Assembly (NCBI GenBank): GCA_020723385.1
Contig: DYIZ01000031.1
Span: 1 to 44,303 of the forward strand
Direction of reading: 5' to 3'
Length of the DNA: 44,303 nt
Origin: Candidatus Aquidulcis sp.
GTDB lineage: Bacteria; Chloroflexota; Anaerolineae; Anaerolineales; UBA4823
Shown here: piece by piece, positions 12,723 through 39,876 of the stretch
Layout of the letters: the number at the start of each line of letters is the position of its first letter
How positions within the stretch are numbered: position 1 is the stretch's first letter
The notes under the pieces: generated by a model
What the model saw: the letters and a program-made list of their open reading frames with translations, nothing else
Databases searched by the model: none
Told to the model about the DNA's origin: nothing
Position numbers and translations under genes: made by a program

Positions 12723-12731
12723 GGCAAGGTG

Positions 12732-15325: not shown

Positions 15326-17854
15326 ATGATTTCACGAGGATTATCTATTCTAAAACATCGATATCTGTTTCTCTTGGAACTTGTTTGTTTGTCGCTGTTA
15401 ATTTTTCTTGTCGTATCAAGCCAGTTCACACCATCGGTCTCGTCGGCCAATGCTAAACAATTAACCAATTATTCCAATGGCTGGCAGAGTACAAACCCTA
15501 AAGATAGTCGCCTGCCAGTACTTCAGAATATCGAGCCCAAAAACTTGTCTATCGGTTTCTTCAATCTCCCATCTACGCCATCTTGGATTACAGAAGGCGA
15601 TCAGGATGGAGCATGGTATGGCGGTTATCTGGGAAATGCAGGGGATATCAATGGCGATGGTTATGATGATATCATCGTTGGAGCGCCCCTCTATGATAAT
15701 AGTGAAACGGACGAAGGACGCGTCTTTGTCTATTTTGGCTCAGCAGCGGGGTTGAGCGCACTTCCTGACTGGACAGCCGAAGGCAACCAGGCTGGCGCTC
15801 GCTTCAGCAGTCATCATGGTTCAATAGGTGATGTTAATGGCTATCGCTATGATGATGTGTTTATTGGGGCAACTATGTATGACAATGGCCAGACTGACGA
15901 AGGGCGCGTTTATGGGTATTATGGCTCCCCAACCGGATTAAACCTGACTCCTGACTGGATTATTGAGAGCAATCAAGCTTATTCGTACTTCGGTTCTTGT
16001 GTGAGTGGCGCCGGGGACGTCAACAGTGATGGTTTTGATGATGTGATAGTAAGTGCAGACTACTATGATAATGGCCAAACAAACGAAGGAAAAGTGTTTA
16101 TCTATTATGGATCGGCAACGGGTCTAGATACAATCCCTGCCTGGACGGCTGAGGGCAATCAAACAAATGCTTATTTAGGAGCACCATGCGGAACGGCAGG
16201 CGATGTTAACGGTGACGGCTACGATGACATCTTCGCAAGTTCTTACCAATTTGACAATGGTCAGGTTAATGAGGGTCGCGTCTTCGTATATTATGGTTCA
16301 GCAATAGGTCCAAGTTTAACCGCGGACTGGGTAGCTGATGGTGATCAGGATTATGCAGACTTCGGTTATTGGACAGGTACCGCAGGAGATGTCAATGCTG
16401 ATGATTACGATGATTTGATCATAGGTGCTCTCTATTTTGATAGCGGCCAAACAGATGAGGGGAAAGTTTTTGTCTACTATGGATCAGCTACGGGATTGAA
16501 TGGCACAGCAAATTGGATGGCGGAGGGCGATCAGGCAGGCGCCAAGTTTGGATCTGCGGGGTTAACAGCAGGTGATGTGAATGGAGACGGTTCCGCAGAT
16601 ATCATTATTGGAGCATACCAATACGATAGCGACCACGTAAATGGAGGCCAAGCCTTTTTATTCTATGGTTCAACGGCCGGATTAAGTACAACTGCCGATT
16701 GGATTGTCGAGGGCGATCAGGATTATGCCGAATTCGGTCTCAGATCACAGACAGCAGGTGATATCAATGGTGACGGTCTTGATGATGTCCTCACCGGTGC
16801 GCGTCTTTTCGATAACGGCCAAACCGACGAAGGGCGCGCGTATGCCTACTATAGCGTGAGTCAAGCTACTGCAACACCCACATCAACCAGCACTACGAAC
16901 GCGACTCCCACCGAAACCCCAACAGGCACTACAACCGCTACACCCACAGAAACCCTGACCACTGATACCCCGACCCCCACTGCCACATCAACCGCGACCG
17001 CATCTGACACGCCCACACCAACCCTAACCACATCTCCATCATCAACACCAACCTCCACATCAACAGGATCTTCGACACCTACTTCTACCCCAACGGCTAC
17101 TCCAACTTTCATCCCGACTCCGACCCCAACCGGCACCCCCACACCGACTGCAACTGCCACAACTACCCCTAACCCAACATCCACCGTGTCTCCCACCCCG
17201 ACACGAACTAGCTGCGTTCCACTCGCTGGGCCGGTTATTTACACGAGCGATTTTGAAGGCCCAGTAGAACTTGAATGGTCGCACAATTCGACGGACATCA
17301 CCCCCAGCGGACGCAGATTCCTCGGCCAATTCAATACCGACGCTGTACAACTGACTCTCCTGTGCCTACCGCTGCACACGACCGTCTCTATCTCGTTCGA
17401 CTTGTACCTGATCCGCTCATGGGATGGCAACCAGGAGATATTCTCTGGCTCAGGCGCTTTGATCGGACCGGATATTTGGGATTTTCGCATCGCAGGCGAT
17501 CCTGCCAGCCTGCACACCACCTTTACTCATTGGTCAAATTATCGTCAGGCTTATCCAGATACATTTCCAGGTGGAGAAAACCCCGCCTGTTCTGGCGCGG
17601 ACGAAAACAACACCTTAGGATATTATTTCTTCGATGACCCAATGGACTCGGTCTACCAACTGAGTTTTACCCTGCCTCACACCTCCGAAACACTGGTACT
17701 GGAGTTCTCAGCATCAGGCTTACAAGATATTACTGATGAAAGTTGGGGATTGGACAATATCCGGGTTACGGTCCAAGCGAACAATTACAACCTTTACTTG
17801 CCAATGATCATTAGCCAAGGTCAGACCGCGGTAAACAAGATAAATAAACGCTGA
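15326..17854 (+). CDS. Exported FG-GAP beta-propeller protein with Thr/Pro linker
   Basis: 842 aa from the ATG at 15326 (GGAGG upstream). A long hydrophobic N-terminal segment (about residues 15-35) serves as signal or anchor. Seven FG-GAP repeats with GD(V/I)NGDGYDDxxxGA calcium-binding loops (about 100-515) should form an integrin-alpha-like seven-bladed propeller. Then comes a Thr/Pro/Ser linker of about 110 residues (515-628), typical of a glycosylated stalk, and a beta-rich C-terminal domain with four cysteines. The protein ends in NYNLYLPMII plus 13 residues, the tail shared with three other exported proteins here. Surface adhesion or ligand binding is inferred. The gene is AT-richer than the flanking operons. 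Confidence 0.85.
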   Translation: MISRGLSILKHRYLFLLELVCLSLLIFLVVSSQFTPSVSSANAKQLTNYSNGWQSTNPKDSRLPVLQNIEPKNLSIGFFNLPSTPSWITEGDQDGAWYGGYLGNAGDINGDGYDDIIVGAPLYDNSETDEGRVFVYFGSAAGLSALPDWTAEGNQAGARFSSHHGSIGDVNGYRYDDVFIGATMYDNGQTDEGRVYGYYGSPTGLNLTPDWIIESNQAYSYFGSCVSGAGDVNSDGFDDVIVSADYYDNGQTNEGKVFIYYGSATGLDTIPAWTAEGNQTNAYLGAPCGTAGDVNGDGYDDIFASSYQFDNGQVNEGRVFVYYGSAIGPSLTADWVADGDQDYADFGYWTGTAGDVNADDYDDLIIGALYFDSGQTDEGKVFVYYGSATGLNGTANWMAEGDQAGAKFGSAGLTAGDVNGDGSADIIIGAYQYDSDHVNGGQAFLFYGSTAGLSTTADWIVEGDQDYAEFGLRSQTAGDINGDGLDDVLTGARLFDNGQTDEGRAYAYYSVSQATATPTSTSTTNATPTETPTGTTTATPTETLTTDTPTPTATSTATASDTPTPTLTTSPSSTPTSTSTGSSTPTSTPTATPTFIPTPTPTGTPTPTATATTTPNPTSTVSPTPTRTSCVPLAGPVIYTSDFEGPVELEWSHNSTDITPSGRRFLGQFNTDAVQLTLLCLPLHTTVSISFDLYLIRSWDGNQEIFSGSGALIGPDIWDFRIAGDPASLHTTFTHWSNYRQAYPDTFPGGENPACSGADENNTLGYYFFDDPMDSVYQLSFTLPHTSETLVLEFSASGLQDITDESWGLDNIRVTVQANNYNLYLPMIISQGQTAVNKINKR

Positions 17855-17957
17855 CTCAGCACCTTGTCAAATTGTTGCTCAAATCCCTTGACCCCGCCAT
17901 CTGCTACAAATCCTGCTTAGACGTGTTCGACAATGGGTTGCCAGCACTTGCTCCAAA

Positions 17958-18743: not shown

Positions 18744-18836
18744 TAATCGGCAGGATGGAGTACACCTTTATCTTCCACACCTAACCTACTTCTCATATAA
18801 TTACGCTGAAAACTCTATTCCCAGCGGTATTTTACG

Positions 18837-20582
18837 ATGACGATTTTCTTTTCTGATCCCAAAGAAGAACCTTTTGGCCAACTTTCTAACCACGCTGTAG
18901 GGTGGTTTCAGCTTGATGGCGTTTTATGGAAAACTGTTGAACATTACTTTCAGGCGCTGAAATTAGTTGACACGCCTTACTTCGAAGAAATTCGTAATGC
19001 TAAAACAGCCGAAGAAGCTATCCAGATAGCTGCATTCCATCAGGATGCCTGCCGTCTGGATTGGGGAGAGATCCAGGATATTGTGATGTGGCGGCTGTTG
19101 TTGTTCAAATTTCAGTGTTTCGATTTTCGACCTGTTTTGCTCAAAACTGGCAGCGAGCTACTCGTCGCGAACATTCCAGACCCTTATTGGGGAGTCGGCC
19201 CGGATGGAACTGGGGAAAACCGCCTGGGGCAGTTGTTGATGGAAATTCGTGAGATCGTCCGTCAGCGGTTGGAGGATAACGCTGCATGCCAATGTCCTCA
19301 CGAAGAAGCTGTCAAGATGGGGAAGGTGTGTGTCCATTTTCTGGAAAATCAAAATCAACGCTATCAACAGGATTCTTGTCGAATTTTTTCCGGACATGGG
19401 TTCGATTTCATCTTCGCTTGTTCGAAATGTGCATCATTACCTGCAGACGATTTATCCAAAAATTTGCGCATTGTGTGCGGTGATTGCTTGGATTATCTTA
19501 CTTCTTCCAGTATGCCAGCAAAGGTAGTCGGATTGCCCGAGTTCTCGCAACGGAATGCCAGGTTATCCATGGTGCATCAAGAGCAGGACGATATCCCTAC
19601 GCCGCTGCCAGCGCCTATTTTGGACATTCAGCCGGTCACAGCAAACGCAGGGAATGTGTGGGTAGCGCTCACAGCCGATAAAAAGCTCTGGCAACTGGAT
19701 TTTGAGCGCAGGTCTGTATCTTGTCTGATTGAGTTGCCGGAAAGCTCCCTGGATTTTTCTAAAAAGATAACCCTTCACCTGTCACGATCAGCGCGTTTTG
19801 CAGCGGTGGTCAATACACGCGGACAAAACGGCTTGGCAGTTGATCTTTCAGTGAAGAAAGTGATCATGCTTCTGGACCGTGGTAATTATAGAATTGAACA
19901 TAGCAATTTTTCAACGGCGTTTTTTGATTTCGACAACCAAACCTGGCTGGTCCACGCGACGAATTGGAATCGCCTGGATATTTCCAACCCTCAAAATGGC
20001 GAGCTTGCCACGTGGCGGATTTCTCCTGTTTACAAGCAGGGCGAAAAGCTCCCCGAACATTACCTGGACTACTTCCATTGCGGATTACGCATTTCGCCGG
20101 ATCAATCCTGGATTGTGGACAACGGATGGGTGTGGTCTCCATTTGGAAGTATCCTGACCTGGAATTTACCTCGTTGGCTCATAGATAATGTTTGGGAGTC
20201 AGAAGATGGCCCGACTAAAAAGGTATTGTGTTCAAGGCACTATTATTGGGATGGCCCTTTATGTTGGATTGACAATCATACCCTGGCTGTATGGGGTTAT
20301 GGCGATGATGAAAGTCTTCTGGTCCCGGCAGTTAGGATATTCGATGTACTGACTGGGGAAGAAACCCGTTGGTTTGCCGGCCCAACGGGGGAGCTTGTTT
20401 TCGACCATTACCTGTTCTCTTTCGATCAGGAACACGGACTGGCTGTATGGGATGTCCAAACCGGCGAGCGGTTGTATCACGAGCCTGATTTCTGTCCAAC
20501 CGGGTATCACCCGGGAGCCAAAACCTTCCTCACGGTTTTGCCGGAGGGCAAATTCCGCGTCAGTCGGCTGGTGGGAATCTGA
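18837..20582 (+). CDS. NADAR-domain protein fused to a zinc-ribbon-like segment and a beta-propeller-like region
   Basis: 581 aa. Residues 1-150 are a NADAR (YbiA-like) domain: FFSDPKEEPFGQLSNH, VEHYFQALK and a C-terminal YWGVGPDGTGENRLGQLLM block. NADAR enzymes cleave N-glycosidic bonds; known members process riboflavin intermediates or remove ADP-ribose from guanosine as DarT-type antitoxins. Residues 150-225 contain CxC, C, CSKC and CGDC, a likely zinc ribbon. The rest (about 240-581) repeats W..D..tG-like strands and aromatic-Asp pairs as in WD40-like propellers. No signal peptide, so cytoplasmic. I do not know this architecture. The 3' end overlaps the convergent hydrolase gene by 23 nt. 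The ATG at 18837 has no strong ribosome site. Confidence 0.8.
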   Translation: MTIFFSDPKEEPFGQLSNHAVGWFQLDGVLWKTVEHYFQALKLVDTPYFEEIRNAKTAEEAIQIAAFHQDACRLDWGEIQDIVMWRLLLFKFQCFDFRPVLLKTGSELLVANIPDPYWGVGPDGTGENRLGQLLMEIREIVRQRLEDNAACQCPHEEAVKMGKVCVHFLENQNQRYQQDSCRIFSGHGFDFIFACSKCASLPADDLSKNLRIVCGDCLDYLTSSSMPAKVVGLPEFSQRNARLSMVHQEQDDIPTPLPAPILDIQPVTANAGNVWVALTADKKLWQLDFERRSVSCLIELPESSLDFSKKITLHLSRSARFAAVVNTRGQNGLAVDLSVKKVIMLLDRGNYRIEHSNFSTAFFDFDNQTWLVHATNWNRLDISNPQNGELATWRISPVYKQGEKLPEHYLDYFHCGLRISPDQSWIVDNGWVWSPFGSILTWNLPRWLIDNVWESEDGPTKKVLCSRHYYWDGPLCWIDNHTLAVWGYGDDESLLVPAVRIFDVLTGEETRWFAGPTGELVFDHYLFSFDQEHGLAVWDVQTGERLYHEPDFCPTGYHPGAKTFLTVLPEGKFRVSRLVGI

Positions 20583-22857: not shown

Positions 22858-23007
22858 GAGAACTCCTTCGGGGCAGGGGATTACTTTGTATACGCACAAG
22901 GATAAGAGATGGTCGCAATGTATTACCTCAGCGAGAAATTCCAGACCATGTTGGAAGCCGGCCAGGCCGCATCCTATGTGTCATAAAAGTGGATGGACAG
23001 CCCTAAA

Positions 23008-23064
23008 AGAACCCGATGGGGCCGCCTGAGCAACTTGGCTGAGGCTCGGCCGCCATCGGGTTCT
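23008..23064 (-). terminator. Large hairpin terminator after the giant gene
   Basis: AGAACCCGATGG (23008-23019) pairs perfectly with CCATCGGGTTCT (23053-23064). The stem continues with GGCCG/CGGCC after one bulge, then CCTGAGC/GCTGAGG with one mismatch, closing a 6-nt loop. In the minus direction a short T run follows (TTTTAGGG), so it most likely ends the transcript of the giant gene, whose stop is at 23166. The remaining 22858-23165 spacer shows no gene; possible promoter hexamers for the 22857 gene are poor. Confidence 0.7.
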
Positions 23065-23165
23065 GATTCAAGGGTTATCGTTTGACCAGGGGAAATATAT
23101 AGGAATTCCCAGCCATGTTTGCAGCCGCCTGAAACAGGAGACACACGGCTGGATTGCCAACTGCG

Positions 23166-29100: not shown

Positions 29101-32100
29101 CCGCTCCCGTTGGGGATCAGCGCGCCGTCTGTGTCGAGCAGCTCCACGGTGACGGTGTAGATGCCCGCGGCCCAGCCGGAGGTATCCACCGTCTGCAATT
29201 CGTAGAGGCGCGGCGCGCCGATCAGCACCGTCAATGGCAACTCGGCGGTATAGCTGACCGCGCCCGTGGGCGATTGGATGACGGTATGCGCGACGGCATC
29301 CTGTGTCACGTTGGCGACATTGGCGACCTCGATGCTCAGCGTGGTGGAGCTGACCCCCGTCTCGACGTAGGCCGGGTCGGGGATGACGGCCGTGAGCTGC
29401 ACGTAACGATCCACCACGTTCAGGCTGGCCGCGGCGTGGGCATAGATTGACTCATCCCCAACGACTACCGCCATCGCATCCAGATCGTACAATCCCAGGT
29501 CCGCGACCGTCATCGGATACACAAACGACACCGTCGCGCCAGGACTTACCGATACCTGCTCACTGCTCACTGATAACTGTTCACTGTTCACTGTCCCCAG
29601 CGCTTCCACCGTCAGTGAGTATATCGTTGTGACGGTGCCCCGGTTGGTCAGATCGAGAGTATATGTGATGGTTTCATATTGCAAAGCTGCGCCGTAGAAA
29701 GGCCTCCAGCGCAGCTCGGGCAGGTGACGGCTGAGAGCGCAGATTTCACCGTCGAGAGCGGCAACCGCGTCACTGAGCACGGCCAGGTCAGCCAGGATGT
29801 CAGCGGTACTGGTGTGGGCTGCCAGCTCGGCGGCGACGGCGACGACGGTATCATCCTCATTCACCAGCGTGGAAGCCCGGCTGGCATAGAGGGCGACGGT
29901 GTTGGCTGCATCCACAGCCTGGTCGCGCAGGGAGAGGTCACAGCCGCCTGCCTGGCAGGAGGCTTCCAGGTGAACCATCGCCAGAGCCAGCGCTTCGAGC
30001 GCCGCGGATAGCCCCGGTTCGCCTACAGTGCAGGATCGCCCGGCTCGGTCGGAGGCGCGGAAGACAGGCTCGCTGTTCTCGGAGACGATCTGCACGTTGG
30101 CGAGGGCGTATTGAGTGTAGCTGCCGGGCGCGGGACTTCCAAGAACCAACGGGAAGCATGACCCCAGCGGGAGTCCGGCGGTCTCAAGGGTGGCAGTTTG
30201 AACGTGGGTTTCGCCAATTGCGAGGGAAACAGGCGATTCGAGATTGACAATCGTACCCGTGACAGGCAGCAGCGTAGCGAAGATCGGAAAAGAACCGCTG
30301 TCGTTGCCCACATTGGTCATCTGGATGGTAAAGTCGGCGCTGCTGCTGGAGGAGAGATAGATGTCGGCTGGCTGAATGGTCAGATAGTTGAAAGGTTGTT
30401 CCGGCATGGTGAAGGTGGCCGAGTCGCCATCGGTGAGGGCCGGGTTATCGGAGGCGACCGCGCCGACATTGACTGGATAGGATACGCCAGGAGTTGGAAG
30501 GGCATCCGCCGGCGGCTGGATGTACAGCCCCAGGCGGGCGGTCGTGCCGGCGGGTAGAGTGACGCTGGCGGCTGATGCCTGCTCGCCGTTAAGGATCACC
30601 CACCCGGCTGGGGGACCGCTCACGGTTACATCGTAGGTGTGCGCGAATTGACCGGGGTTGGCAATCTCGACGGTGTACGCGGCCCCATTGATCTCCGTCT
30701 CGCCATCATTCGTCTGGTTGCTCACCGCCGGGATTTGCGCCTCCCCCATCGGCGTCGTGATATTTGGCTCGACCTCCAGATCAACAGAAACGGCGTCCAG
30801 GGCGGTAATGGTCACGGTATGCTGGGCAATGCCGAATAATGACGGGCATTGCGAGGACTGAGCGACGATTTGAAGGGTGTAATCACCCGGTTGCGCGCCT
30901 GCGGGTGGCTGTGCCGTGACACTGCCGGTGGGATCCAACCTCACATTCCAGTCTTCCGGCGCGTACGCCATGACGGTGAAATCGTCATCGAAATTGCTGC
31001 TGATCTCGGCCTGGAAATTGACCGCGGTACCCGGGGCAGTGCTGGATGCCTCGGGATTTACCGCCAGAGTGAAAGCCGGATCGCCCGCCGGCTGGCTGGC
31101 GGTCACGGGCAGCGTGGCAAGAGCCATCGGATGCGCCCGATATGGCTCCGAATAGACAAAAAGCGTCTCTGGCAATGGAATGGGGGCAGGCGTGATTCCG
31201 TCCATGAGAAACTGTTCCACCCCGCAGTTGTCCACCGGACACAGGTAGGCCGGGAAATATCGCCACGTGGCCTCTGCGCTGGTCAAAGAATCCAGGGAAC
31301 GCATTCCCCCTCTCCCGCTCGACCAACCAGCTTGTAGACCCCCAAAATACCTCGTCAGGTTTGCGCCAACGACGTTGATGAATTCCCATACTGCCGCTGG
31401 CCCCGGTTCGACGTCCGAAATCTGTTCCAGAATGAATATAAGCAGATCTTCGAATGCACTGCTTTCGAAAAAGCTGGTATGCAGCCCATTTTCCATCACA
31501 CTGATGGTTTCCCCAGTTTGAGGGTCAACCTGCCACCAGCCAAAAACATCTTGCCCGTCCACACTGACCGGCGCAGTGGGAATCAGCACATTTTTCCCCT
31601 CAAATAATGCCGTCATCACAAACGCCTTCGCCTTTGTCGAGAAGGGGTAGACATCCAGCAGGTAGGCATCCGCGGGAGTGATCCAGACTGGCGTGATGCC
31701 TTGCAGCTCCATTTCATCGAAGACGCGGGCAGCAGTAAGGGTCGGTATATCATAAACAGCCTCGAGAACCTGCCCTTCCAAAACCGACTCGACTACTCCT
31801 TTAGCCCAATTGGCAGAATAAGCGGCCGACACGGCTTGTCCTGGGTATACGATGTTACTGGTCGTGGTGCGGCGCAAATCAACCGTTTCGGTTACAACGC
31901 CCGTCGGGGCGCCAACCGATGAAATCGTGAAGACACGCGGTGTGGCATAGAACAGCTTCGTCTGCAAACCGCTTTCGATTTGCGCCTTGGCCCGGTCCGC
32001 TTCCCATCCAAAATCCAGGCCGATGCCGCTCAAAAGGTCTTCATTGGCAAAGAACGCCTCCCCTCTCGCCTGGGTGATGGTATTCTTATCCTGGGGAGAG

Positions 32101-33845
32101 TAAGGCCCACCGGAAGGCGCCTGGGACTGGATTTGCAGCAGTTCGACCCCATAATGGCCCAGCGTGACCAACTGGGGCAGAACGCTCATGGCGCGCCGCT
32201 CGTACACCCAGGCTGGTACATCATTGGGCAGCACCCAATTGACATATAAATCATACGGGTTGGTGAATGGCAACGAATCGGTCCCCCCAGAAAAATCAAG
32301 CGAGCCACCCGACAGGCGTTTGTCCGCGCCAACCAGATCCTTCACCGTGCGGGTAAAGGTCTCCACATTACCGTTTGGGTCGGTAATTTCATATTCCAGC
32401 CATTCCGCTGTCGTGAATTGAGAGCTGAGCGGGAAACTCGAATACATATCCTGGAACGAATCGCCCAGGTAGCTGCCGCCGTTATCGTCAATCTCGAAAT
32501 AAGGCGTGTATGTGTGGGTAATCGCTGTATACACTCCCCCAAGCCCCTCGCTGCGGAGCAAATGGGAAAAAGTCAGCCGTTTGCTGGCAAGCTGGGCGGT
32601 GGGGAAAGTCACTTCCAGGGGATAGAAGGTCTGCAAATAGCTGCCACTGATGGGAAAGGCGGTGTACTGCTCCACCTTGAGGCGAACAATGATCTCGTGG
32701 CGCTGGTCTTCGGGCAGCTCGGCGATGCGGTCATTCGCCCCCGGTGTGGCGAACACATCCCCCGGCTGGGCATCGGGGAAAGATGGGTCGAGATCAGTCC
32801 ATCCCAATCCGGGCAGATATGCCTCCACCCACCAGTGATCGGAGACGAGCGCGATCAGAGCGGGATCGTTGACCGGATCGCTGACCGGCGTCCCGTCGGG
32901 GATGTACCCGGCAACCCCGACTGGCGGGGGGAACATGGCCCCGATGAGAGTCTGCGCCCTGGGGGTGGATAGCGCCCCATGGCGGTAGCGCGCCGGGGCA
33001 CCCGCCGCGCGCAGCATGGCGATCAGCAGGCTGGATTTGTCGGCCGAGTTGCCGGCCTGACCCCACAGCGTGCCGCGCGTGCCGCGCAGCGAGCCTTTAT
33101 AGGGATCGAAACCGAGGCCGCGTACATACTCGAAAGCCGCCAGCGGATCCTGGACGAACTCCGCCGATTTCCACAGCATGTCCACATCCGTCGAATCGGC
33201 GTCCACGGTGGGCTGGGTGAAGGCAGGGTCAATTCCACCGGGAATGGTGACCGCCGGGCGTGCAGCAGCCGAGGCGGGATCGCCCCACTGTTCGACCTCT
33301 ACCCGCGCGCCGGAATCCAGCTCGACGAAATCGCCGCCCGCCGGCGGGGTTTGCACACTCATGGTGATGACAGATGTCCCTTGGGGCGGGAGGTCGGGCA
33401 GCGCCCAGGTGAGGGTACCACCAACGACAGCCGGATCGCCCGAGGCGGCGAGCAGCGTCGTCCCATCGGTCAGAGTATCCTCCACAGTCACGACCCGCAG
33501 GGTGTTGACATCGTCAGTAATAACAAAACTGGCAAGAATGTCCATCGTGTCGGTGACAGTGGCCCCGGCGGGTATCTCCGGCTGGCGCGTGGGAGGCAGG
33601 TTATTCGTGATGGTAAACTCGATCTCTGTTATCCCGGCGATGTAGACAGTTTGGAGACGCGAGATAGTGACGGGGTTCGAGAGTACGTCCGGTTCGTTGT
33701 TGGGTGACAAGGAAAGTGCGGCTTCGTTTGCGTCCGTGTGGGTTGGGGATATGCTGGCGCTCGCCCTCACAGGGAAGAGGCCGAACAGGATGGATACACA
33801 AACGGTCAGAGAAACGATACGATATCGGATACTTGGAGTGTGCAT
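23166..33845 (-). CDS. Giant exported multidomain surface protein (3559 aa)
   Basis: Start at 33845 (GAGGAAAAC upstream) gives a Sec signal MHTPSIRYRIVSLTVCVSI ending near RASAS. Order: beta-rich DUF11-like domain; transglutaminase-like domain (about 245-355) with GNSADKSSLLIAMLRAAGAPAR and DHWWVEAYLPGLGWTDLDPSF, where the catalytic Cys position is not cysteine; a long mixed region (about 355-1600) including NEW3/CARDB-like domains; repeats encoded by 8- and 7-bp arrays (about 1620-1672); carbohydrate-binding-like modules with VFIDGVSQGTLDL and RYEEDDP motifs (about 1680-2475); eight FG-GAP/VCBS-type repeats GDxDGDGxxE (2485-2885); and NEW3-like domains (2920-3535). It ends EYKLYLPLVLKLGP. 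A cell-surface adhesin or scaffold is inferred. The upstream ELWxSDGT gene ends 22 nt before it, so they are co-transcribed. Confidence 0.88.
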   Translation of the reverse strand: MHTPSIRYRIVSLTVCVSILFGLFPVRASASISPTHTDANEAALSLSPNNEPDVLSNPVTISRLQTVYIAGITEIEFTITNNLPPTRQPEIPAGATVTDTMDILASFVITDDVNTLRVVTVEDTLTDGTTLLAASGDPAVVGGTLTWALPDLPPQGTSVITMSVQTPPAGGDFVELDSGARVEVEQWGDPASAAARPAVTIPGGIDPAFTQPTVDADSTDVDMLWKSAEFVQDPLAAFEYVRGLGFDPYKGSLRGTRGTLWGQAGNSADKSSLLIAMLRAAGAPARYRHGALSTPRAQTLIGAMFPPPVGVAGYIPDGTPVSDPVNDPALIALVSDHWWVEAYLPGLGWTDLDPSFPDAQPGDVFATPGANDRIAELPEDQRHEIIVRLKVEQYTAFPISGSYLQTFYPLEVTFPTAQLASKRLTFSHLLRSEGLGGVYTAITHTYTPYFEIDDNGGSYLGDSFQDMYSSFPLSSQFTTAEWLEYEITDPNGNVETFTRTVKDLVGADKRLSGGSLDFSGGTDSLPFTNPYDLYVNWVLPNDVPAWVYERRAMSVLPQLVTLGHYGVELLQIQSQAPSGGPYSPQDKNTITQARGEAFFANEDLLSGIGLDFGWEADRAKAQIESGLQTKLFYATPRVFTISSVGAPTGVVTETVDLRRTTTSNIVYPGQAVSAAYSANWAKGVVESVLEGQVLEAVYDIPTLTAARVFDEMELQGITPVWITPADAYLLDVYPFSTKAKAFVMTALFEGKNVLIPTAPVSVDGQDVFGWWQVDPQTGETISVMENGLHTSFFESSAFEDLLIFILEQISDVEPGPAAVWEFINVVGANLTRYFGGLQAGWSSGRGGMRSLDSLTSAEATWRYFPAYLCPVDNCGVEQFLMDGITPAPIPLPETLFVYSEPYRAHPMALATLPVTASQPAGDPAFTLAVNPEASSTAPGTAVNFQAEISSNFDDDFTVMAYAPEDWNVRLDPTGSVTAQPPAGAQPGDYTLQIVAQSSQCPSLFGIAQHTVTITALDAVSVDLEVEPNITTPMGEAQIPAVSNQTNDGETEINGAAYTVEIANPGQFAHTYDVTVSGPPAGWVILNGEQASAASVTLPAGTTARLGLYIQPPADALPTPGVSYPVNVGAVASDNPALTDGDSATFTMPEQPFNYLTIQPADIYLSSSSSADFTIQMTNVGNDSGSFPIFATLLPVTGTIVNLESPVSLAIGETHVQTATLETAGLPLGSCFPLVLGSPAPGSYTQYALANVQIVSENSEPVFRASDRAGRSCTVGEPGLSAALEALALAMVHLEASCQAGGCDLSLRDQAVDAANTVALYASRASTLVNEDDTVVAVAAELAAHTSTADILADLAVLSDAVAALDGEICALSRHLPELRWRPFYGAALQYETITYTLDLTNRGTVTTIYSLTVEALGTVNSEQLSVSSEQVSVSPGATVSFVYPMTVADLGLYDLDAMAVVVGDESIYAHAAASLNVVDRYVQLTAVIPDPAYVETGVSSTTLSIEVANVANVTQDAVAHTVIQSPTGAVSYTAELPLTVLIGAPRLYELQTVDTSGWAAGIYTVTVELLDTDGALIPNGSGYGYFGVGQGLVASHAVSPAIVPPGTFTVTTVITTEILDTGEQLSVYSDQLSVISDQYSAADQPPDNLFTQSPDYLIIPSPDYPITQSLDYLTINGVFTRTEQSEPEVAYTGTWSSVNTNRASGGSFTLADAPGETAALTFEGVWVNVGFLAGPYSGRAEVFIDGVSQGTLDLYRREDTAVSFVYGGLITATHTISVAALGTKNPYAFYNYVQLDYFDAWDGSALPDGSFEQDDARVIVSPGWWVASDSQASGGTYINSAAGTIWFPFSGDSFSFHTMQLSDNGWARLYVDGEYLTTLSLHSFTPVAHTYSYQGFGAGPHILQVAAYRGNASVDAFTTPGLPPFDDPQPTGSFTRYEEDDPLLRYNGVPYTQTITTWGAANYPVHGSGGYFAVSGAAGDSVSLTFEGVSLGVGFLTYGYGGQADIYLDGDWLRTVDLFTNNEDTASFYFDGLAEATHTVTVTILSTAHPNSLGHAVRFDYFDVWDGTALPEGTFEESSDRLIYSGGWYAWSSSVASGGGGASDDGADNGAVWFPFTGESVTYQALAYYGAHEVIVKIDGVPQGIVDIYSSADITKTISFDGLPTGVHVLEVRAYRRDTTLDAFITPGVVPWYEPPAPPTGVIRYEEDNPALLYNGYPLTQTVTSWWPYQYALSVASNGWTAGTSVPGNWVALDFSGTWVGVGFAAYNGEAEIFIDGVSRGILDLDLISPITNVYFDDLITGAHTISVTSVSGTVLFDFFDTWDGSEMDSGWYEAHLNDHRGPYHYNTLSHWYTQVPDLNLPRIQYAREGDVIGRRFPPGYATQLWFTFTGDDLMLLAFQASGTSVEVFIDGISQGAFDLTPEYSTQPYALHFQDLGDGPHVASVSNFGGAFLDAFQVNPPNALPYTPQVEWTDDAPTEPHSGYANDGLLSSAALGDLDGDGLVEIVAPASNGQMYVYRGDGQDAGSGSPLIWQTGLVGSAAEPAIADLDGDGYAEIIVVGSDGTAAFHHDGSIYWFTDTIKSGYSEGGYMGWGGPSIGNVDLDPEPEIVLAAYNDGLYVLDHDGTQLFYTPTGIFPTVPALADLTGDGVLDILYAQDRTISLLDHFDGDIIEWTRTHTYTGYALGTFGAPAVADVDGGQPGGDDGPEVIINWGPYVDVLDEDGALLWNYNLGYDYFRPSPVTIADVDGDGEIEILTASAHHAGLGVDFHTLFVLNANATLLWQQTMGDATASASGVATQDLNGDGVWEVLWNGQNEGFTIMNGPDGEKLFNEGITESGTMVDYPVLGDVDGDGFAEVVTGGYNGIFVIGHDGIWGDSRPLWNQHNYHITNVNDDLSIPANEPNSWDLHNTYRTQTPERNPMPSYAVTISHTVGVDGVAVLTTTFNISPDVQAAPLYGWSYTVDGAAPVVTRTFESVLTGLQPGEARLVAERTVVAYRLPGGWNWLTLPPLYVSVPHIIAIQPDWQAAGAGATVIYTVTLTNPGTTASDYTLELIGLPDEWGALPPTVNVPPLGAVSVPLTVTLPVGAGAAEYPFGVSVTTSQGGADQANATLESLGPAVEVSLDPADRAIPTGETAVYTLTVTNLEDTARTYALAAEGLAPVNLPAQISVAANSAEAITVTVRAVSEGSNPFTVIAAELETGASAQATAAITGQGFAGVAVVISPSVAQSGPGVPTVFAVTVTNLGSAPETYDLSVEPPVGWDLSLTQFGQPVSAVMVAPGEANAVETQLTLTPPADAALGDYNFTVTATDQQIGKSANQQSGVGSGVVQIGGRGVQVEIVSGDAELSPTEIGTWQVQVTNTGNENDTYDLSVFGPLAAFAEIAPGVITLAPGQSQTVQVTAGPLIHALPGDLTLGVLAESQSQSYIRDEDTTAVTITEYQAVEAAWLPDAQTVTGTLSAFFTLIVTNTGNVNTTYLFAVSSDPAVETQLAVVSLPIPPHSAIPLLVKVTAPEPGTYLLTGTAESGDIQASDTATLIVINDEPPEYKLYLPLVLKLGP
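23879..23910. repeat. In-frame octamer array inside the giant gene
   Basis: Four units TTTGCTGA, TTTGCCGA, TTTGCCGA, TTTGCTGA at exact 8-bp steps. On the coding strand they give the short polar stretch QQIGKSANQQ between two beta domains. The reading frame is preserved. Confidence 0.75.
28827..28914. repeat. In-frame array of eleven octamers inside the giant gene
   Basis: Units of exactly 8 bp such as CAGGTAAT, TGAGTAAT, TGGGTAAT, GGGATAAT. Because 24 bp are eight codons, the protein shows an 8-residue repeat: NLFTQSP, DYLIIPSP, DYPITQSL, DYLTING. It lies just before the carbohydrate-binding-like modules and 16 bp from the heptamer array at 28931. Confidence 0.8.
28931..28982. repeat. In-frame ACTGATN heptamer array inside the giant gene
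   Basis: Seven exact 7-bp units: ACTGATC, ACTGATC, ACTGATA, ACTGATC, ACTGTAC, ACTGATA, ACTGCTC. Coding-strand translation gives the 7-residue repeat QLSVYSD, QLSVISD. It is the same family as the intergenic array at 4501-4536. Confidence 0.85.
29555..29596. repeat. Second in-frame ACTGNNN heptamer array inside the giant gene
   Basis: Six heptamers (CCTGCTC, ACTGCTC, ACTGATA, ACTGTTC, ACTGTTC, ACTGTCC). The protein reads VNSEQLSVSSEQVSVS, again a 7-residue repeat, between two beta domains near residue 1420. Confidence 0.8.
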
Positions 33846-33867
33846 GTTTTCCTCGCTTTTGAAGTTG

Positions 33868-36800
33868 CTAATCGTCACGTGTAACGAGCGGTAAGAAGAT
33901 CTCGTATTCGGTTATCTCAACCGTCACGTGGATGCTATCGCTGGCCCACCCGCCGAGGTCATCCGTCAGCGTCACGGTAATGGTGTATTCACCCGTCGCT
34001 GTGTAAACGTGACTCCCGCGGATGGTATGAGCAATCTCATCAACCGTTCCGGCCTCCACCACGCCGTCGCCCCAGTCAACCATGGCGGTGTGCATATCCG
34101 GCGCGCCTGGATCGGTGAAAGTTGCCGTCAGGGTGAACGTTTCGCTGATGACAGCGTTTTGATCTGCGCCCGCTTCCAGGCCGGGAAAGATGTGGATGAG
34201 GGTGATGGCTGTTCCGATGTTGTCTACGGGGGCCAGCTCCAGCTCTGTGGTGGTGATGGCAACCGTGTTAGTGATGTTGGCGTCTTCGCTCAGGCCGGGA
34301 TCGAGCCTCCCGCTGACGGTGATCATCCCTCCCGCTCCAGGTGGGAGATCGCCCACCAGCCAGGTGAACGCATCCCCTGAGGTGGAGGACAGGGGCGGGT
34401 CGGCGATGAACACCGGATCGAGTATCTCCGCCGGGAGCGGGTCGCTAATCACGACGCTGGTCGCTGTCTGTGGGCCAACGTTGGTGTAGACCAGGGTATA
34501 GGTGATGACATCCCCAGGTTTTAGCATGGCAGGGCCGGTTTTGCTGATCTGGAGATCGGTTCTATTTTTAGGAATGAGGGCAGCGACTCGCAGCCGCGCC
34601 CCGTAACCTGGGCTGGCCAGGAAGAACAGCCTGTCTCCCAATGAGGTGAACCAACCTGGATTCGAGGCGTTTCCCCCCGGATACAGGTGCTCGAGCAGGG
34701 CGGTGTTCGATTCAACGCCCAGGCTGCTCCAAAACTCAGCGCCGTTCACGCCGTCTTCGGCGGCGAATACGAGCATTTCCCGAAATGCAGCCAGTTGGGA
34801 TGGGTGCGAGCTGAGCGCGCCGGGATAGATATCTTTTGCCAGGCGAGTTCCGGCAGACGTACCGTCGCTGACCCATAACTCCGTGTTGCCAACCCCATCG
34901 TCAGCCGTGAAAAACAATTGATTGCCAATGACGGCCAGGTTCCCGGGGTTGCTGCTGCCAGAGCCGGGCCAGATGTCTGTGACCAGGGTTGTGCCAGCTT
35001 GTGTGCCGTCGCTCTTCCAAAGCTCGTCGCCCGATGAGTCGGCGGCCTTGAAATACACCATACCGCCAAAGTCGGTCAGGAAATTGGGCATCGAGTTGTT
35101 CGATCCGGTGTAAATGTCCCTGACCATCAGCGTCCCGGTGGGCGCGCCGTCGCTGACCCACAATTCGATTCCGCTGCCCCCATAATCGTTAGCGCGGAAG
35201 AACAGCTTGCCGCCAGCGCTCGTCAGCCGGTCAGGAGAAGAGCCGCCCGAGCCGGGACGAATGTCTTCGATCATCACCGTTCCCGTCAGCGTACCATCGC
35301 TGATCCACAGCTCTGAGCCGTGGACGCCGTCATTGGCGGTGAAGAACAATAGGCCATCCACGACTGTGAGATTACTGAGCGCGCTGCTGGGGCCGCCGGG
35401 ACGGATATCCTTGACCAGGGCAGTTCCCGGCTCGCTTCCGTCGCTGGCCCATAATTCCTCGCCGGTCACTCCGTCGTTCGCAACAAAGAACAGCCGGCCG
35501 CCGGCGACGGTCAGGTTCGTGGGAGCGGCGCTGCCCAGGCCGGGGCGGATATCTTCGACCATCACCGTACCGGAGGGTGTACCGTCGCTGCGCCACAACT
35601 CTACCCCATGCACGCCATCGGTCGCCTTGAAGAACAGCGCGCCGCCGAAGGGGGTCAATTCAGCCGGTAGAGAGCCTCGCTCGCCGGTGAAAATATCTCG
35701 AACCATTATTGTTCCTGTTGACGCGCCGTTGCTTTTCCACAGCTCTTTGCCGTTGAGTCCATCGTTCAAGGTAAAGAACAATTCGCCGCCAAAACTGGTC
35801 AATTCGCTGTCGGAGGCGATGGTGTTCACGTCGCGCAGCAACTGCGTGCCGGCGGGAGCACCATCGCTGATCCAGATTTCGTAGCCAACGATGCCGTTAT
35901 CCGCCATGAAATACAGGCTGCCGTTGATATCTGCCATCCGGCTGGGCGACGAGCCGGTCAGGCCGGGGTAGATATCCTCGATCATCACCGTCCCGGAAAA
36001 TGTACCGTCGCTGCGCCACAATTCCCCACCGGCGATGCCGTCGCTGGCCCGGAAGAACAGCCCCCCACCGACGGAGATCGGTTCGGAGATTGAGCTGCCT
36101 GCCGCTCCAGGGAAAATATCCCGCACCATCACTGTACCTGTCGGCGTGCCGTCGCTCACCCAAAGCTCAACGCCATGACTCCCATCATTGGCCGAGAAAA
36201 ATACTCGGTCGTTGACGGCTACCAGGTTGATGGGCGAAGAATCGTCCGTTCCTGTGTAGATGTCTCGCACCATCACTGTACCGGTGGGCGTGCCATCACT
36301 CACCCACAATTCGTTTCCGTGTACGCCGTCATTGGCTGAGAAGAAAACCATCCCATCGGCAGCAGTCAAGCCGTCGGGGAAGGCTGCTCCCGCGCCGGAA
36401 TAGATATCGGTGACCATCAGCGTGCCGGAGGGCGTTCCGTCGCTCACCCATAATTCTGCGCCGTGTACGCCGTCATCGCCACGGTAGAAAAGGGTATCGT
36501 TCAGAGCGACCAATTGGTTGGGGTAACTGCTGGCTGCGCCAGCGACCACATCCCTGACCATGACCGTACCGGCGAGCGTACCGTCGCTTTTCCATAATTC
36601 CTGGCCGTGCTCGCCATCGTCAGCGCCAAAGTACAGCAGGCCGTTCATCTCTTCCATAAGAAGGATCGAGGCGCCATTCGTTCCGGTGTAGATGTCTTTG
36701 ACCAAGACCGTGCCGGCCGCGCTGCCGTCGCTCTTCCACAATTCCTGGCCGTGCGCCGCGCCATCGCTGGCAGTGAAGAACAGCTCGTCGTTCACCACCA

Positions 36801-37404
36801 GTGGCTTGAAGGGAGCACCGCTGCCTGAACTACCGCTCCGAATATCTTTGACCAGCATGGTGCCCGCTGGTGTACCATCGCTTACCCACAATTCTCCGCC
36901 ATGAACACCATCGTTCGCTCCGAAGTATAACTTACCGCCGAATGCGATCAACGATTGGGGCGGATTATTCAAAGGCTCGCTGCCGGTGTAAATATCTTTG
37001 ACCATCAGCGTGCCGGTGTAGGTTCCGTCACTCATCCATAACTCAGCGCCATGCACGCCATCGTCGGCCACGAAGAAGGCATCGCTCCCCACAGCGGTCA
37101 AGTAGATTGGCAGTGAGCCGTTGGTGGGAAACACCAGGTCGGTCACCGCCTGGCTGCTGCCGAGAGTCCAGGTGATGGCTGCCGGAGCTTTCAGTGCCCC
37201 CTCTTGTCCCCCGGATGATAGGGAATCTGGGAGAGCAGAATGAGCCAGGGCCGCGGCAGGCGCTCGAAAGCCATGCACCAGGGCGAACATCCCGACGACG
37301 GCGATAAAGAGCATCGCTAAGCTCACGCCCAACAGCATGGCTGACGTGGCAGTCACCCCGCGCAGGATCGTAGATTGGTCTTTTGCGAGAATATTCTTAT
37401 TCAT
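33868..37404 (-). CDS. Exported ELWxSDGT-repeat protein with DUF11- and PKD-like domains
   Basis: 1178 aa. A hydrophobic segment (about 17-45) acts as signal or anchor. From about 95 to 920 there are sixteen recognisable ELWxSDGT repeats plus one decayed copy (AEFWSSLGVES), each about 48-50 residues (FFxANDGxHGxELWxSDGTPxGTxMVxDIxPG), a predicted beta-propeller-like or solenoid array. A DUF11-like domain follows (about 945-1040; ISKTGPAMLKPGDVITYTL), then a PKD-like domain (VDWGDG...GSHVYTATGEYTITVT). It ends EYEIFLPLVTRDD. The start at 37404 has AAGGAT. It lies between the beta-helix gene and the giant gene in one transcription unit. The PKD-like domain is close to that of the beta-helix protein, pointing to shared ancestry or recombination. 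Function: surface binding, inferred only. Confidence 0.9.
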   Translation of the reverse strand: MNKNILAKDQSTILRGVTATSAMLLGVSLAMLFIAVVGMFALVHGFRAPAAALAHSALPDSLSSGGQEGALKAPAAITWTLGSSQAVTDLVFPTNGSLPIYLTAVGSDAFFVADDGVHGAELWMSDGTYTGTLMVKDIYTGSEPLNNPPQSLIAFGGKLYFGANDGVHGGELWVSDGTPAGTMLVKDIRSGSSGSGAPFKPLVVNDELFFTASDGAAHGQELWKSDGSAAGTVLVKDIYTGTNGASILLMEEMNGLLYFGADDGEHGQELWKSDGTLAGTVMVRDVVAGAASSYPNQLVALNDTLFYRGDDGVHGAELWVSDGTPSGTLMVTDIYSGAGAAFPDGLTAADGMVFFSANDGVHGNELWVSDGTPTGTVMVRDIYTGTDDSSPINLVAVNDRVFFSANDGSHGVELWVSDGTPTGTVMVRDIFPGAAGSSISEPISVGGGLFFRASDGIAGGELWRSDGTFSGTVMIEDIYPGLTGSSPSRMADINGSLYFMADNGIVGYEIWISDGAPAGTQLLRDVNTIASDSELTSFGGELFFTLNDGLNGKELWKSNGASTGTIMVRDIFTGERGSLPAELTPFGGALFFKATDGVHGVELWRSDGTPSGTVMVEDIRPGLGSAAPTNLTVAGGRLFFVANDGVTGEELWASDGSEPGTALVKDIRPGGPSSALSNLTVVDGLLFFTANDGVHGSELWISDGTLTGTVMIEDIRPGSGGSSPDRLTSAGGKLFFRANDYGGSGIELWVSDGAPTGTLMVRDIYTGSNNSMPNFLTDFGGMVYFKAADSSGDELWKSDGTQAGTTLVTDIWPGSGSSNPGNLAVIGNQLFFTADDGVGNTELWVSDGTSAGTRLAKDIYPGALSSHPSQLAAFREMLVFAAEDGVNGAEFWSSLGVESNTALLEHLYPGGNASNPGWFTSLGDRLFFLASPGYGARLRVAALIPKNRTDLQISKTGPAMLKPGDVITYTLVYTNVGPQTATSVVISDPLPAEILDPVFIADPPLSSTSGDAFTWLVGDLPPGAGGMITVSGRLDPGLSEDANITNTVAITTTELELAPVDNIGTAITLIHIFPGLEAGADQNAVISETFTLTATFTDPGAPDMHTAMVDWGDGVVEAGTVDEIAHTIRGSHVYTATGEYTITVTLTDDLGGWASDSIHVTVEITEYEIFLPLVTRDD

Positions 37405-37479
37405 GGTTATCCTTCCGTAATCAGAAACTAAGATGCCCCGAGCGAGGCCGTAACCCGGTTCCGGGATCGCATATTCAGA

Positions 37480-39876
37480 TCAGCGAATGATGATAGGCAG
37501 GAAGACCTTGTAATCGCCAGCGCCCGCCGGGTTCACAGTCACAGTGAAGGGATCGCTGTGTTGGCCCCCGTCGTTGTCGCTGATGGCGACGGTGACGGTG
37601 TACTCGCCCGCGCTCGAATAAACATGGCTGCCGCTGATCGTTCCTGCGCCCTGGTTCACAATCCCGGCTTCGACGGTTCCGTCGCCCCAGTCAACCTCGG
37701 CAGTGTGGATGTTGGATGCATCCAGATCGCTAAAAGTAGCGGATAAAGTGACCGCTGTCCCCGCCTCCGTGGTCTGATCCAATCCCGCGTTCACCACGGG
37801 CTTATCGTTGACCCCTTGGATGTTGATCGTCACCGTAGCGGTGCTGGTCAAGAACCCATCGCTGACGACATAACCAAAAACATCATTGGCCTGCTCTCCA
37901 AGCGCGAGGGCGTCGAACTGCCCGCCTGGGTCGTAGTTGAAAGCGCCATTGCCATCGTCTGTAACCAACCCCACTGTGCTGCCAGTGTCTATCGCTGCCA
38001 CCGAAAGCGCGCTGCCATTGGGGTCCATATCGTTGGTAAGCACATTGGCGGTGGTGAAGGGAGTATCCTCGTCGGTAATAAAGCCGACCCCGCTGTCATC
38101 CAGGGCAAGCGGGGGCGCGTTGACCACCGTGACCGTAATACTCTCTAAGACAGGTGTGATCACCTGAATGCTGGAGACTGCGGCGATATTGACCAACTCG
38201 ACGCCACCCGCCAGCCCGAAGGAAACGCTGACCGGGAAAGTGATCTTTACCTGTTGGCTCTCAGAAACTGCCAGCCCAGTAGCCAGCATGGGGGGCGTGA
38301 ACCCCGGGGAACCGGCATCCTGCGGGTCGAGACGAATCGGCCCCATGAAATTCAATCCGAGGGGGAGCGTATCGGAGATCAGCCCGCCAGAAGCGTCTGC
38401 TCCGAGAGGCGTCGCCACAATTGTGAAGGTGATCACCTGGCCGGGTTCGGGCGTTAAGTCATCCACTGACATGGAAATTTGAATGGTCGTAATCTCCAAC
38501 TCGAAAGAGCCAATATCGCAGCCAGGCCCCTGTGGGCGGGAAACGCCGCGCTGATCGTCAGGAGCGGCGCAGACCCCGGCGGGGATGGCGTCTAACACCG
38601 GGCTGCCGGGGTTGGGAGCGATCGTCAGGACGGGGTCTCCCCCTGTACCTGTCGCATGGCCGCCGTTGTCGGCAAGCCGGTCGAGCATCGGATCGCCGCT
38701 GAAGCTCGTGCCAGCCGAGATGCAAGCGCCATCTTCGACCAGGTTGTAGCCATTATCATTGAGCGTGCCGCCGCCGCCCATATCACAATCGCCGTTCAGG
38801 TTGCCGCCCAAAACGTTATTGGAAAAAGTGACAATACCGCCCCAACTTCTGATACCGCCATAGATACTTGATGCCGAGTTGGAATAGATCGTGCTGTGAG
38901 TGAGGGTCAGTACGCCGCCATAGTTGTTGATGCCGCCGCCGAAGGTGTCTGCCGAGTTCCCGGAGAAGGTGCTCTGCGCCACACTCAATGAGGCCAGACC
39001 GGCTGATTGGTAGTTGTAGATGCCGCCAGCATAGGCATCCGATGTATTGCTGAGAATCGAGCTGTGGGTCAGGCTCATGATTGCCTGGCCGGAATCTCCA
39101 AAGTTGAAGTTATAGATGCCGCCAGCGAAGGCGGAGCCTGTGTTGCTGATCACCGCGCTGTGAGCGATGCTCATCCTGGAATCGCCGTTATACCCATTAT
39201 TGGAGATGCCGCCGCCCTGCGGCGATTGGTTATCTATAATGGTACTCGTATGGATGTGCAGAATGGCCTGGCCCGCATCGCCATAATTCCCGATGCCGCC
39301 GCCAGAATTTGTGGAGCTGTTGTTGGAGATGGTACTGTGATCCACGGTCAGGCTGGCTGCGCCATAGGAGCCATCATTCAAAAGGCCTCCGCCAATATAG
39401 GCCATGTTACTGGTCACCAGGCAGTGGGTCAGGGTCAAAACGCCCCGGTTGTAAATACCGCCTCCAAAGTTAGCTGGATATCCTCCCTGGGCAACCCCAT
39501 GGCGGATCGTCAGCCCATCCAGGGTCACACTGATCCCTGCGGTGATCGCCATCACCCGCGATGCGGCGATCCCAGGGGCGCCGGCAGCCTGTACGATGGT
39601 GCTGTCTGCGCCCGCACCCTGGATAGTCAGAGACTTGTTGACGGTGACGCTTTCGGTGAAGGTCTCGCCAGCCAGGCTGAGCGTGTCGCCTGCGGCGGCC
39701 CCGTCAATAGCCGCCTGGAGGCTGGAAAAATCACAACCAATGGCGCAGACAGTGTAAGTGGTATTCACGGACTCGAGAACAACTGGCGGTCTCGCTGCCT
39801 GTGCAGAAATCCAAAGTACGCTCAATGCTGCACTGAGTCCCAGGCTAATAGATATGAAAATTCTGATTGTTCGCAT
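37480..39876 (-). CDS. Exported right-handed beta-helix protein with DUF11-, Big/cadherin- and PKD-like domains
   Basis: 798 aa with a Sec signal MRTIRIFISISLGLSAALS ending near SAQAA. Residues about 45-400 form a parallel beta-helix of the polymorphic-outer-membrane-protein type, with repeated (S/T)xISxNS and GGGIxN rungs. The N-terminal DFSSLQAAIDGAAAGDTL and the SLTIQGAG cap are usual for this family, as is the CDIGSFEL end near residue 455. Then come a DUF11-like domain (465-590), a Big-type domain (VNAPPLALDDSG...LTNDMDPNG, about 590-690), a PKD-like domain (695-785) and the tail DYKVFLPIIIR at the very C-terminus. AAGGAT precedes the ATG. Likely a surface protein binding polysaccharide; no lyase catalytic motif was recognised. 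Confidence 0.88.
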   Translation of the reverse strand: MRTIRIFISISLGLSAALSVLWISAQAARPPVVLESVNTTYTVCAIGCDFSSLQAAIDGAAAGDTLSLAGETFTESVTVNKSLTIQGAGADSTIVQAAGAPGIAASRVMAITAGISVTLDGLTIRHGVAQGGYPANFGGGIYNRGVLTLTHCLVTSNMAYIGGGLLNDGSYGAASLTVDHSTISNNSSTNSGGGIGNYGDAGQAILHIHTSTIIDNQSPQGGGISNNGYNGDSRMSIAHSAVISNTGSAFAGGIYNFNFGDSGQAIMSLTHSSILSNTSDAYAGGIYNYQSAGLASLSVAQSTFSGNSADTFGGGINNYGGVLTLTHSTIYSNSASSIYGGIRSWGGIVTFSNNVLGGNLNGDCDMGGGGTLNDNGYNLVEDGACISAGTSFSGDPMLDRLADNGGHATGTGGDPVLTIAPNPGSPVLDAIPAGVCAAPDDQRGVSRPQGPGCDIGSFELEITTIQISMSVDDLTPEPGQVITFTIVATPLGADASGGLISDTLPLGLNFMGPIRLDPQDAGSPGFTPPMLATGLAVSESQQVKITFPVSVSFGLAGGVELVNIAAVSSIQVITPVLESITVTVVNAPPLALDDSGVGFITDEDTPFTTANVLTNDMDPNGSALSVAAIDTGSTVGLVTDDGNGAFNYDPGGQFDALALGEQANDVFGYVVSDGFLTSTATVTINIQGVNDKPVVNAGLDQTTEAGTAVTLSATFSDLDASNIHTAEVDWGDGTVEAGIVNQGAGTISGSHVYSSAGEYTVTVAISDNDGGQHSDPFTVTVNPAGAGDYKVFLPIIIR

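Follow-up and report, generated by a model that had tools for sequence, protein, structure and literature searches.

The window analysed here, a 44,303-nucleotide stretch of Candidatus Aquidulcis sp. (Chloroflexota; contig DYIZ01000031.1), encodes four exported proteins that end in a common short peptide built around Tyr/Phe-Leu-Pro. This peptide is already catalogued in NCBIfam, as the putative sorting motif 'YLP-box', and about 80 proteins of the window's own genome carry it as a tail at their end. What is new here is the tolerance of position shown by a motif catalogued as C-terminal: the YLP-box is not strictly C-terminal, and in several genomes it lies near the N terminus or among the domains of a protein. 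We favour the interpretation, to which we give a probability of roughly 0.4, that it is a position-tolerant docking peptide holding exported proteins at the cell envelope, over a signal that is cut or one that directs export.

A tail on about 80 proteins of one genome

The genome from which the window comes (G000; 6.43 Mb, 95.6% complete) was searched with a strict pattern (Y-x-Phi-[YF]-L-P-L-[IV] plus near look-alikes) and a broad one (Phi-[YF]-L-P-Phi-Phi-x-R), with the reversed patterns serving as controls. The strict pattern gave eight matches, none of them more than 34 codons from a stop, and its reversed control gave three. The broad pattern gave 89 matches versus 6 for its control, a difference that rules out chance or a low-complexity repeat. 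On reading, 81 of the 89 proved to be C-terminal (no more than 33 codons from a stop) and 4 internal, with 4 more set aside as chance-like (L330, L333, L351 and L382); the chain ends exactly at the motif's Arg, its eighth residue, in 62 of the 89. Of the 81 C-terminal copies, 79 are preceded by 60 or more open codons, the other two following frames of just 8 and 12 codons (L355 and one in L381, respectively). The first of these, at about base 4004 of L355, consists of eight open codons and then a tail much like that of the window protein P0001 (ANNFSVYLPVVIRLNQNVTSRMNKR), and is perhaps a broken relative of P0001. No second copy of the motif was found in the 81 hosts, across 58,424 upstream residues scanned.

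To judge by its sequence, the core is Phi-[YF]-L-P-Phi-Phi-x-R, in a peptide of 8–11 residues that appears beta-prone. Pro occupies its position in all 81 C-terminal copies, Arg in 80 and Leu in 78, and the aromatic residue is Tyr in 58 and Phe in 23; these counts are partly fixed by the search pattern, which demanded Tyr, Phe or a look-alike at the aromatic position. The first-pass annotation of the window had drawn up a consensus whose [YF]-L-P core stands, whereas its leading Tyr, two residues ahead of the core, is only a tendency (24 of 81) and the core itself extends further, to the Arg. Across the 81 copies the Arg is encoded by all six of its codons and the Pro by all four. Such free variation places selection at the level of the protein, and rules out a mobile DNA element inserted in frame.

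The translations place all four tails of the window (Table 1) where the first-pass annotation had put them and in the same frames, with the chain stopping 1–13 residues past the ten-residue tail that it had marked. In P0004 a Lys stands at the position of the motif's Arg, so this protein is absent from the 89 broad-pattern matches. All four frames start with a signal-peptide-like stretch in translation, and the three that were run through a crude predictor (P0001, P0002 and P0003) passed; the first Met of P0001, at residue 15, likely begins its signal peptide, and the likely start of P0004 is Met 12. The domains upstream differ from protein to protein, as had been noted. The PKD_4 match in both P0002 and P0003 extends to the end of the profile ahead of the tail (residues 1074–1162 of 1178 and 690–781 of 798, respectively), which sets the tail outside the PKD domain.

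Copies near the N terminus and among domains

In a first group of proteins that depart from the C-terminal arrangement, the motif lies about 10 to 60 residues behind the signal peptide, and in many cases a Pro/Thr-rich linker separates it from the domain that comes next. Ten such proteins were scanned against Pfam. Six exceeded the cut-off, as CAP (L096, L176 and L197), GH114 (L103), GHL10 (L061) and FG-GAP (L105) proteins; L107 had a match below the cut-off only, and L115, L206 and L232 had none. The motif therefore stands ahead of the domain in CAP proteins of three genomes and in one FG-GAP protein, whereas P0001 has it behind FG-GAP. Locus L193 of genome G012 is the same locus as L096, which lies on a contig of Candidatus Oscillochloris fontis.

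In a second group the motif lies among domains or in repeats, and it occupies the same place in pairs that look orthologous by eye (L059/L172, L063/L165, L098/L127 and L072/L173). The proteins of the first pair are RHS/YD-repeat-like by eye and carry the YLP-box internally at the same place in two genomes, which is unusual for a sorting motif.

A complete genome, G163, which we term Roseiflexus-like for a tail protein in common with Roseiflexus loci L064, L122 and L161, gave 31 broad-pattern matches versus 7 in the control. We read 30 of the 31: about 16 are C-terminal (one of them, L410, uncertain), 7 are N-terminal or internal (L401, L402, L408, L414, L418, L420 and L422) and 7 are chance by eye, a number equal to the control count. 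Thus 7 of about 23 copies judged real are not C-terminal, and most of these are N-terminal.

Given copies at the N terminus, at the C terminus and in between, it is apparently the peptide as such that functions, shown at an exposed site whatever its position. The first-pass annotation had proposed a shared C-terminal signal of exported Chloroflexota proteins; that the signal is shared is borne out, but its confinement to the C terminus is not.

An already catalogued motif

The first-pass annotation had been unable to name the motif. Scanned alone, the tails match NCBIfam NF050076 (sort_motif_YLP) and NF053834 (ultrashort_CTERM), described as 'YLP-box putative sorting motif', so a name exists. 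At E ≤ 10, 17 of 22 tails from the window's own genome matched NF050076 and 13 of 22 matched NF053834. The NF050076 cut-off of 15 bits was exceeded by the window tails of P0002, P0003 and P0004 and by each of six N-terminal copies tested; the tail of P0001 fell below it. The YLP-box was not reported in full-length scans of the window proteins at E ≤ 1, nor was it among the best 25 of 99 NCBIfam families in a scan of 79 hosts. No paper describing the motif was found in the open-access literature, and the available part of a study of the Litorilinea envelope (PMC13319060) contains nothing on it.

Searching genomes with the YLP-box profile at E ≤ 10, a permissive threshold at which 12 of 14 control genomes match too, two of them over the cut-off, gave 79 places in the window's own genome, 41 in G163 and at least 119 in G011 (150 of 189 candidates scored). 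Among 17 genomes not listed as tail-bearing, 15 had 0–8 places; the other two, G099 and G031, both of family f31, had 17 and 20, and are probably motif bearers as well.

A protein family collected without the tail

We also gathered a family of small secreted proteins whose GG-rich domain ends in GGFW, using a query that left out the tail. This query found 52 places in 20 of 201 genomes, and 47 distinct frames were read. The tail's Pro is present in all 36 short frames (at most 80 residues from domain start to stop), behind a linker of variable length. Six of the 11 longer frames have a tail-like stretch after a Thr-Pro linker; among the longer frames the tail comes at the end after another stretch in two (L255 and L292) and mid-protein in two (L256 and L257), and a further one (L285) runs off its stretch, the tail being visible once more of that gene is included (L342). 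Gathered independently of the tail, the family has the same core with more variety than the pattern-selected copies.

GGFW proteins often lie near a frame that contains a 'TAFTYQGRL...' stretch and has no tail (23 frames in 19 loci, forming one cluster; loci with both include L038, L055, L076, L090, L123 and L182). The two proteins are possibly a conserved pair.

Host proteins

A simple home-made predictor found a signal peptide in 55 of 60 complete host frames, compared with 22 of 104 frames in a crude control that includes spurious frames, and three of the five misses (L357, L367 and L247) look signal-peptide-like by eye. The expectation that hits would be confined to the C termini of signal-peptide proteins thus describes most of the window's own genome, but has exceptions in its relatives.

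Domain scans covered the last 520 residues at most of 79 hosts. At E ≤ 0.001, 77 Pfam families were matched, the commonest of them in 12 of the 79, and in an alignment of the hosts the Pro is the sole invariant column. With no domain common to the 79 hosts, the tail is independent of what lies upstream, as the first-pass annotation had held from four proteins; the alternative it had raised, that the tail is the last strand of PKD or another common domain, is ruled out.

Choice-of-anchor proteins are types that carry anchor signals elsewhere. Among the best 25 of 99 NCBIfam families matched by the 79 hosts at E ≤ 0.01 were choice-of-anchor types Q (9 hosts), T (5), J (3) and B (2), and by eye the ends of type Q run nearly straight into the tail in L345, L374, L380 and L381. 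A model for myxosortase-dependent M36 proteins was matched over some stretch by 7 of the 79.

Distribution in Chloroflexota and beyond

The strict pattern matched in 49 of 201 genomes of the phylum. The loci taken contain 122 distinct matches, of which 70 are C-terminal and end a frame open for 60 or more codons. Genomes in which the broad pattern clearly outnumbered its control had matches/control of 89/6, 86/8, 32/4, 31/7, 29/8, 24/2, 24/5, 21/3, 21/5 and 21/4; smaller excesses include 14/4, 17/9, 24/16 (G101) and 23/12 (G165), and most other genomes are near their control. G139, from the same family as G163, gave 0/3, and G173, from the same family as G165, is likewise a relative without many motifs; G012 counts among the motif-rich genomes, together with G000, G011, G163 and G189. 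The motif is therefore patchy within the phylum, with a clear excess confined to some lineages.

A search of named genomes, using a pattern without the stop and sorting loci by record title, gave at least 119 matches in at least 118 loci. Among the loci listed, 82 have Chloroflexota titles and 36 others; among the matches listed, 83 lie in Chloroflexota-titled records and 36 elsewhere. Of those 83 matches, 59 follow a long frame and are C-terminal, another 7 have a stop no more than 25 codons away, and the remaining 17 are placed otherwise; of the 36 listed from outside the phylum, only 6 are C-terminal. Four of these six are one protein, dehydrogenase-like by sequence; the other two are L093, behind a 62-codon frame, and L110, on an Elioraea-binned contig that has a Roseiflexus-type protein end plus the motif and is probably mis-binned. 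L157, from the unclassified bacterium HR08, is perhaps a true tail, and L169, from a member of the Dehalococcoidia counted here as Chloroflexota, is probably a chance match.

Features of the window

Table 1 Tail-bearing proteins, their tails and neighbouring genes in the window
Feature	Position	Strand	Basis
P0001, exported FG-GAP protein	15284..17854	+	Translation; Pfam FG-GAP; signal-peptide-like start (crude predictor)
YLP-box tail of P0001, NYNLYLPMIISQGQTAVNKINKR-stop	17783..17851	+	NF050076 13.2 bits, below cut-off 15
P0004, exported, 3570 amino acids; transglutaminase-like, Ig-like, FG-GAP and NEW3 domains	23166..33878	-	Translation; Pfam; signal peptide by eye only
YLP-box tail of P0004, EYKLYLPLVLKLGP-stop	23169..23210	-	NF050076 16.9 bits, over cut-off 15
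P0002, exported; ELWxxDGT-repeat, DUF11, PKD	33868..37404	-	Translation; domain scans; crude signal-peptide predictor
YLP-box tail of P0002, EYEIFLPLVTRDD-stop	33871..33909	-	NF050076 16.1 bits (cut-off 15); NF053834 16.7 bits (cut-off 10)
P0003, exported; choice-of-anchor Q, cadherin/Big_9, PKD	37480..39876	-	Translation; domain scans; crude signal-peptide predictor
YLP-box tail of P0003, DYKVFLPIIIR-stop	37483..37515	-	NF050076 15.5 bits, over cut-off 15
Large BTAD/TPR regulator-like protein, on one side of the region	9510..13046	-	
IS66-type transposase, close to P0001	13205..14725	-	
Protein with N-terminal NADAR domain, among the tail genes	18837..20582	+	
Large BTAD/TPR regulator-like protein, on the other side of the region	40230..43310	+	

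Candidate machinery

Candidate partners were sought in 30 genomes, 13 of them listed as tail-bearing. Sortase was present in 12 of these 13 and in 13 of the 17 others, and G165 has no sortase match, though three tails were read there (L011, L178 and L179). Sortase thus does not track the motif, and sortases as a class are a possible partner. Exosortase exceeded the cut-off in 1 of the 30 genomes, with a strong match in the motif-rich G011, which rules it out as a general partner; a weak match below the cut-off was seen in G189, also motif-rich, and the exosortase family PF09721 had no match at E ≤ 0.001 in the window's own genome. The first-pass annotation had looked to a co-occurring processing enzyme for support, and none emerged from these two families or from the gene neighbours described below. 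For the type IX secretion system (T9SS), SprA_N was found in none of 13 genomes, and the control matched nowhere either.

S-layer homology (SLH) domains are ruled out as a general partner, occurring in only 1 of the 30 genomes, G109; there were none in G000, in the 13 genomes listed as tail-bearing or in Pfam scans of the four window proteins. G109, which belongs to the same order as the window, has 51 SLH matches and no excess of the YLP motif. This one genome suggests that SLH and the YLP-box are alternative surface systems. The available part of a cryo-tomography study of Chloroflexota (PMC7332563) describes an outer-membrane-like outer layer in two of three species and an S-layer in one of three, a count that makes a lattice S-layer an unlikely universal partner.

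Gene neighbours (637 frames around 194 loci) were clustered, and no candidate partner was seen by eye in the 14 largest clusters; many of the stretches extend no more than about 0.6 kb beyond the motif gene, which makes this a weak negative. Frames resembling regulators, transporters, glycosyltransferases and dehydrogenases make up these clusters, along with an antisense artefact and a family found beside the GGFW proteins. No PDB chain was found for a profile of the 22 tails; against Pfam, a single tail of the 22 had one weak match, probably by chance. AlphaFold models of the GGFW family with its tail (36 sequences) and of PKD plus tail (3 sequences) reached a mean pLDDT of 51.9 and 55.9, respectively.

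What the motif may do

If the YLP-box is a docking peptide, its clients would be exported by Sec (perhaps also by Tat), and the peptide would not be a cut-off C-terminal signal but would stay on the folded protein after export, exposed by a short linker. A common envelope component could then bind it as an extended strand, so that bound enzymes and adhesins would be kept on the outer cell layers. The YLP-box would thereby be a minimal docking module, with a role like that of SLH, LysM and dockerin domains at several times shorter length. A more specific form of this proposal, which we put forward tentatively as one that may well prove wrong, is a position-free ligand of ten residues, at the C terminus, behind the signal peptide or in loops, that is bound by one envelope receptor in part of the Chloroflexota and supports a coat of roughly 20 to 120 clients.

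Several observations weigh against docking. No partner was identified among sortase, exosortase, SLH or the gene neighbours, and the AlphaFold models are too weak to reveal the conformation of the tail. Placement in the window's own genome is strongly C-terminal (81 versus 4), and the 62 exact Arg ends would also suit an enzyme that recognises the chain end; in some N-terminal copies (L176, L197 and L232) the Arg is missing. Both of the 30 genomes with any exosortase match are motif-rich. According to the available part of the myxosortase paper (PMC11980579), C-terminal sorting tags can work mid-protein. Internal copies by themselves are therefore compatible with processing, and the N-terminal copies weigh more.

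Some of these points lend themselves to a processed C-terminal sorting signal, which we consider rather unlikely. Here a transpeptidase or protease would cut near the YLP-box and join the protein to an envelope molecule, as with sortase, exosortase, rhombosortase or T9SS, and N-terminal copies would be side uses. The NCBI label 'putative sorting motif', the strong C-terminal bias with its exact Arg end, the hosts of choice-of-anchor type and the sortases of nearly all genomes listed as tail-bearing all speak for it. Yet no membrane helix or basic cluster follows the motif, unlike in the known membrane-bound processing tags, as far as these are described in the available parts of PMC1569441 and PMC11980579; sortase is also frequent in the other genomes and unmatched in tail-bearing G165, exosortase is over the cut-off in a single genome, and the N-terminal copies precede a functional domain. 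Position tolerance, awkward for cutting, would fit an export signal: a secretion apparatus would recognise the strand wherever it is displayed and move folded proteins across the outer envelope without anchoring them. The outer-membrane-like layer reported for two of three species in the available part of PMC7332563 agrees with this; no apparatus was identified, and we regard this reading as improbable.

The same tolerance would suit an acceptor site at which an enzyme that reads any exposed position modifies the Tyr or a residue next to it, for instance by glycosylation or lipidation. The motif does hold an aromatic residue, though the search pattern demanded Tyr, Phe or a look-alike there, but Phe replaces Tyr in 23 of 81 copies, making that hydroxyl dispensable, and apart from the Arg no near-invariant residue has an obvious acceptor group; we give this explanation very little weight. 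Just as doubtful is a structural cap or self-assembly strand, in which the tail would complete a beta-domain, either in its own molecule or in one beside it, in a donor-strand-like manner. The strand-like composition agrees with it, as does a separate strand at the tail in the weak model of the PKD construct, but the tail comes after complete domains of many folds and the linker ahead of it varies in length in the GGFW family.

The YLP-box marks the clients of a route that may be the chief one for surface display in multilayered Chloroflexota, and is a ready bait for a receptor search. Its position tolerance directs that search towards a binder and not necessarily a protease. If the docking tag is real, enzymes could be displayed on these cells by means of a very small handle; if docking is also position-free, surface display across a genome would be built on a linear motif in place of a folded anchor domain or a signal that is processed.

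Comparison with known systems

SLH domains retain proteins at the surface non-covalently and may sit at either end of the chain. The role proposed for the YLP-box is likewise surface retention from either end, but an SLH domain spans 44 model positions and the YLP-box is far shorter.

Known processed tags, in the available parts of PMC1569441 and PMC11980579, combine a motif with a membrane helix and a basic cluster. The YLP-box resembles the PEP-CTERM/exosortase system in being a short C-terminal signal repeated on many unrelated signal-peptide proteins per genome (as the available part of PMC1569441 has it), but YLP tails have no PEP, helix or basic cluster, and the window's own genome has no exosortase match. 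With LPXTG/sortase it shares a Leu-Pro and exported clients, but not the Thr-Gly, the helix or the basic tail. The first-pass annotation had likewise set the four tails of the window apart from LPXTG and PEP-CTERM, rightly on this evidence, as none has a TG, PEP, helix or basic tail. MYXO-CTERM, in the available part of PMC11980579, has an invariant Cys, a helix and an Arg-rich end, and dozens of clients per genome. This number is the likeness to the MYXO-CTERM/myxosortase and GlyGly-CTERM/rhombosortase systems, together with the 7 of 79 YLP hosts that match the M36 model; the difference is that the YLP-box consensus has neither Cys nor helix and one fixed Arg, and the four window tails contain no Cys. 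NF050076 and NF053834 describe the same motif and name it as putative only. The label ultrashort_CTERM of NF053834 fits the window's four proteins and 81 of the 89 matches in their genome, but not the N-terminal and internal copies in its relatives.
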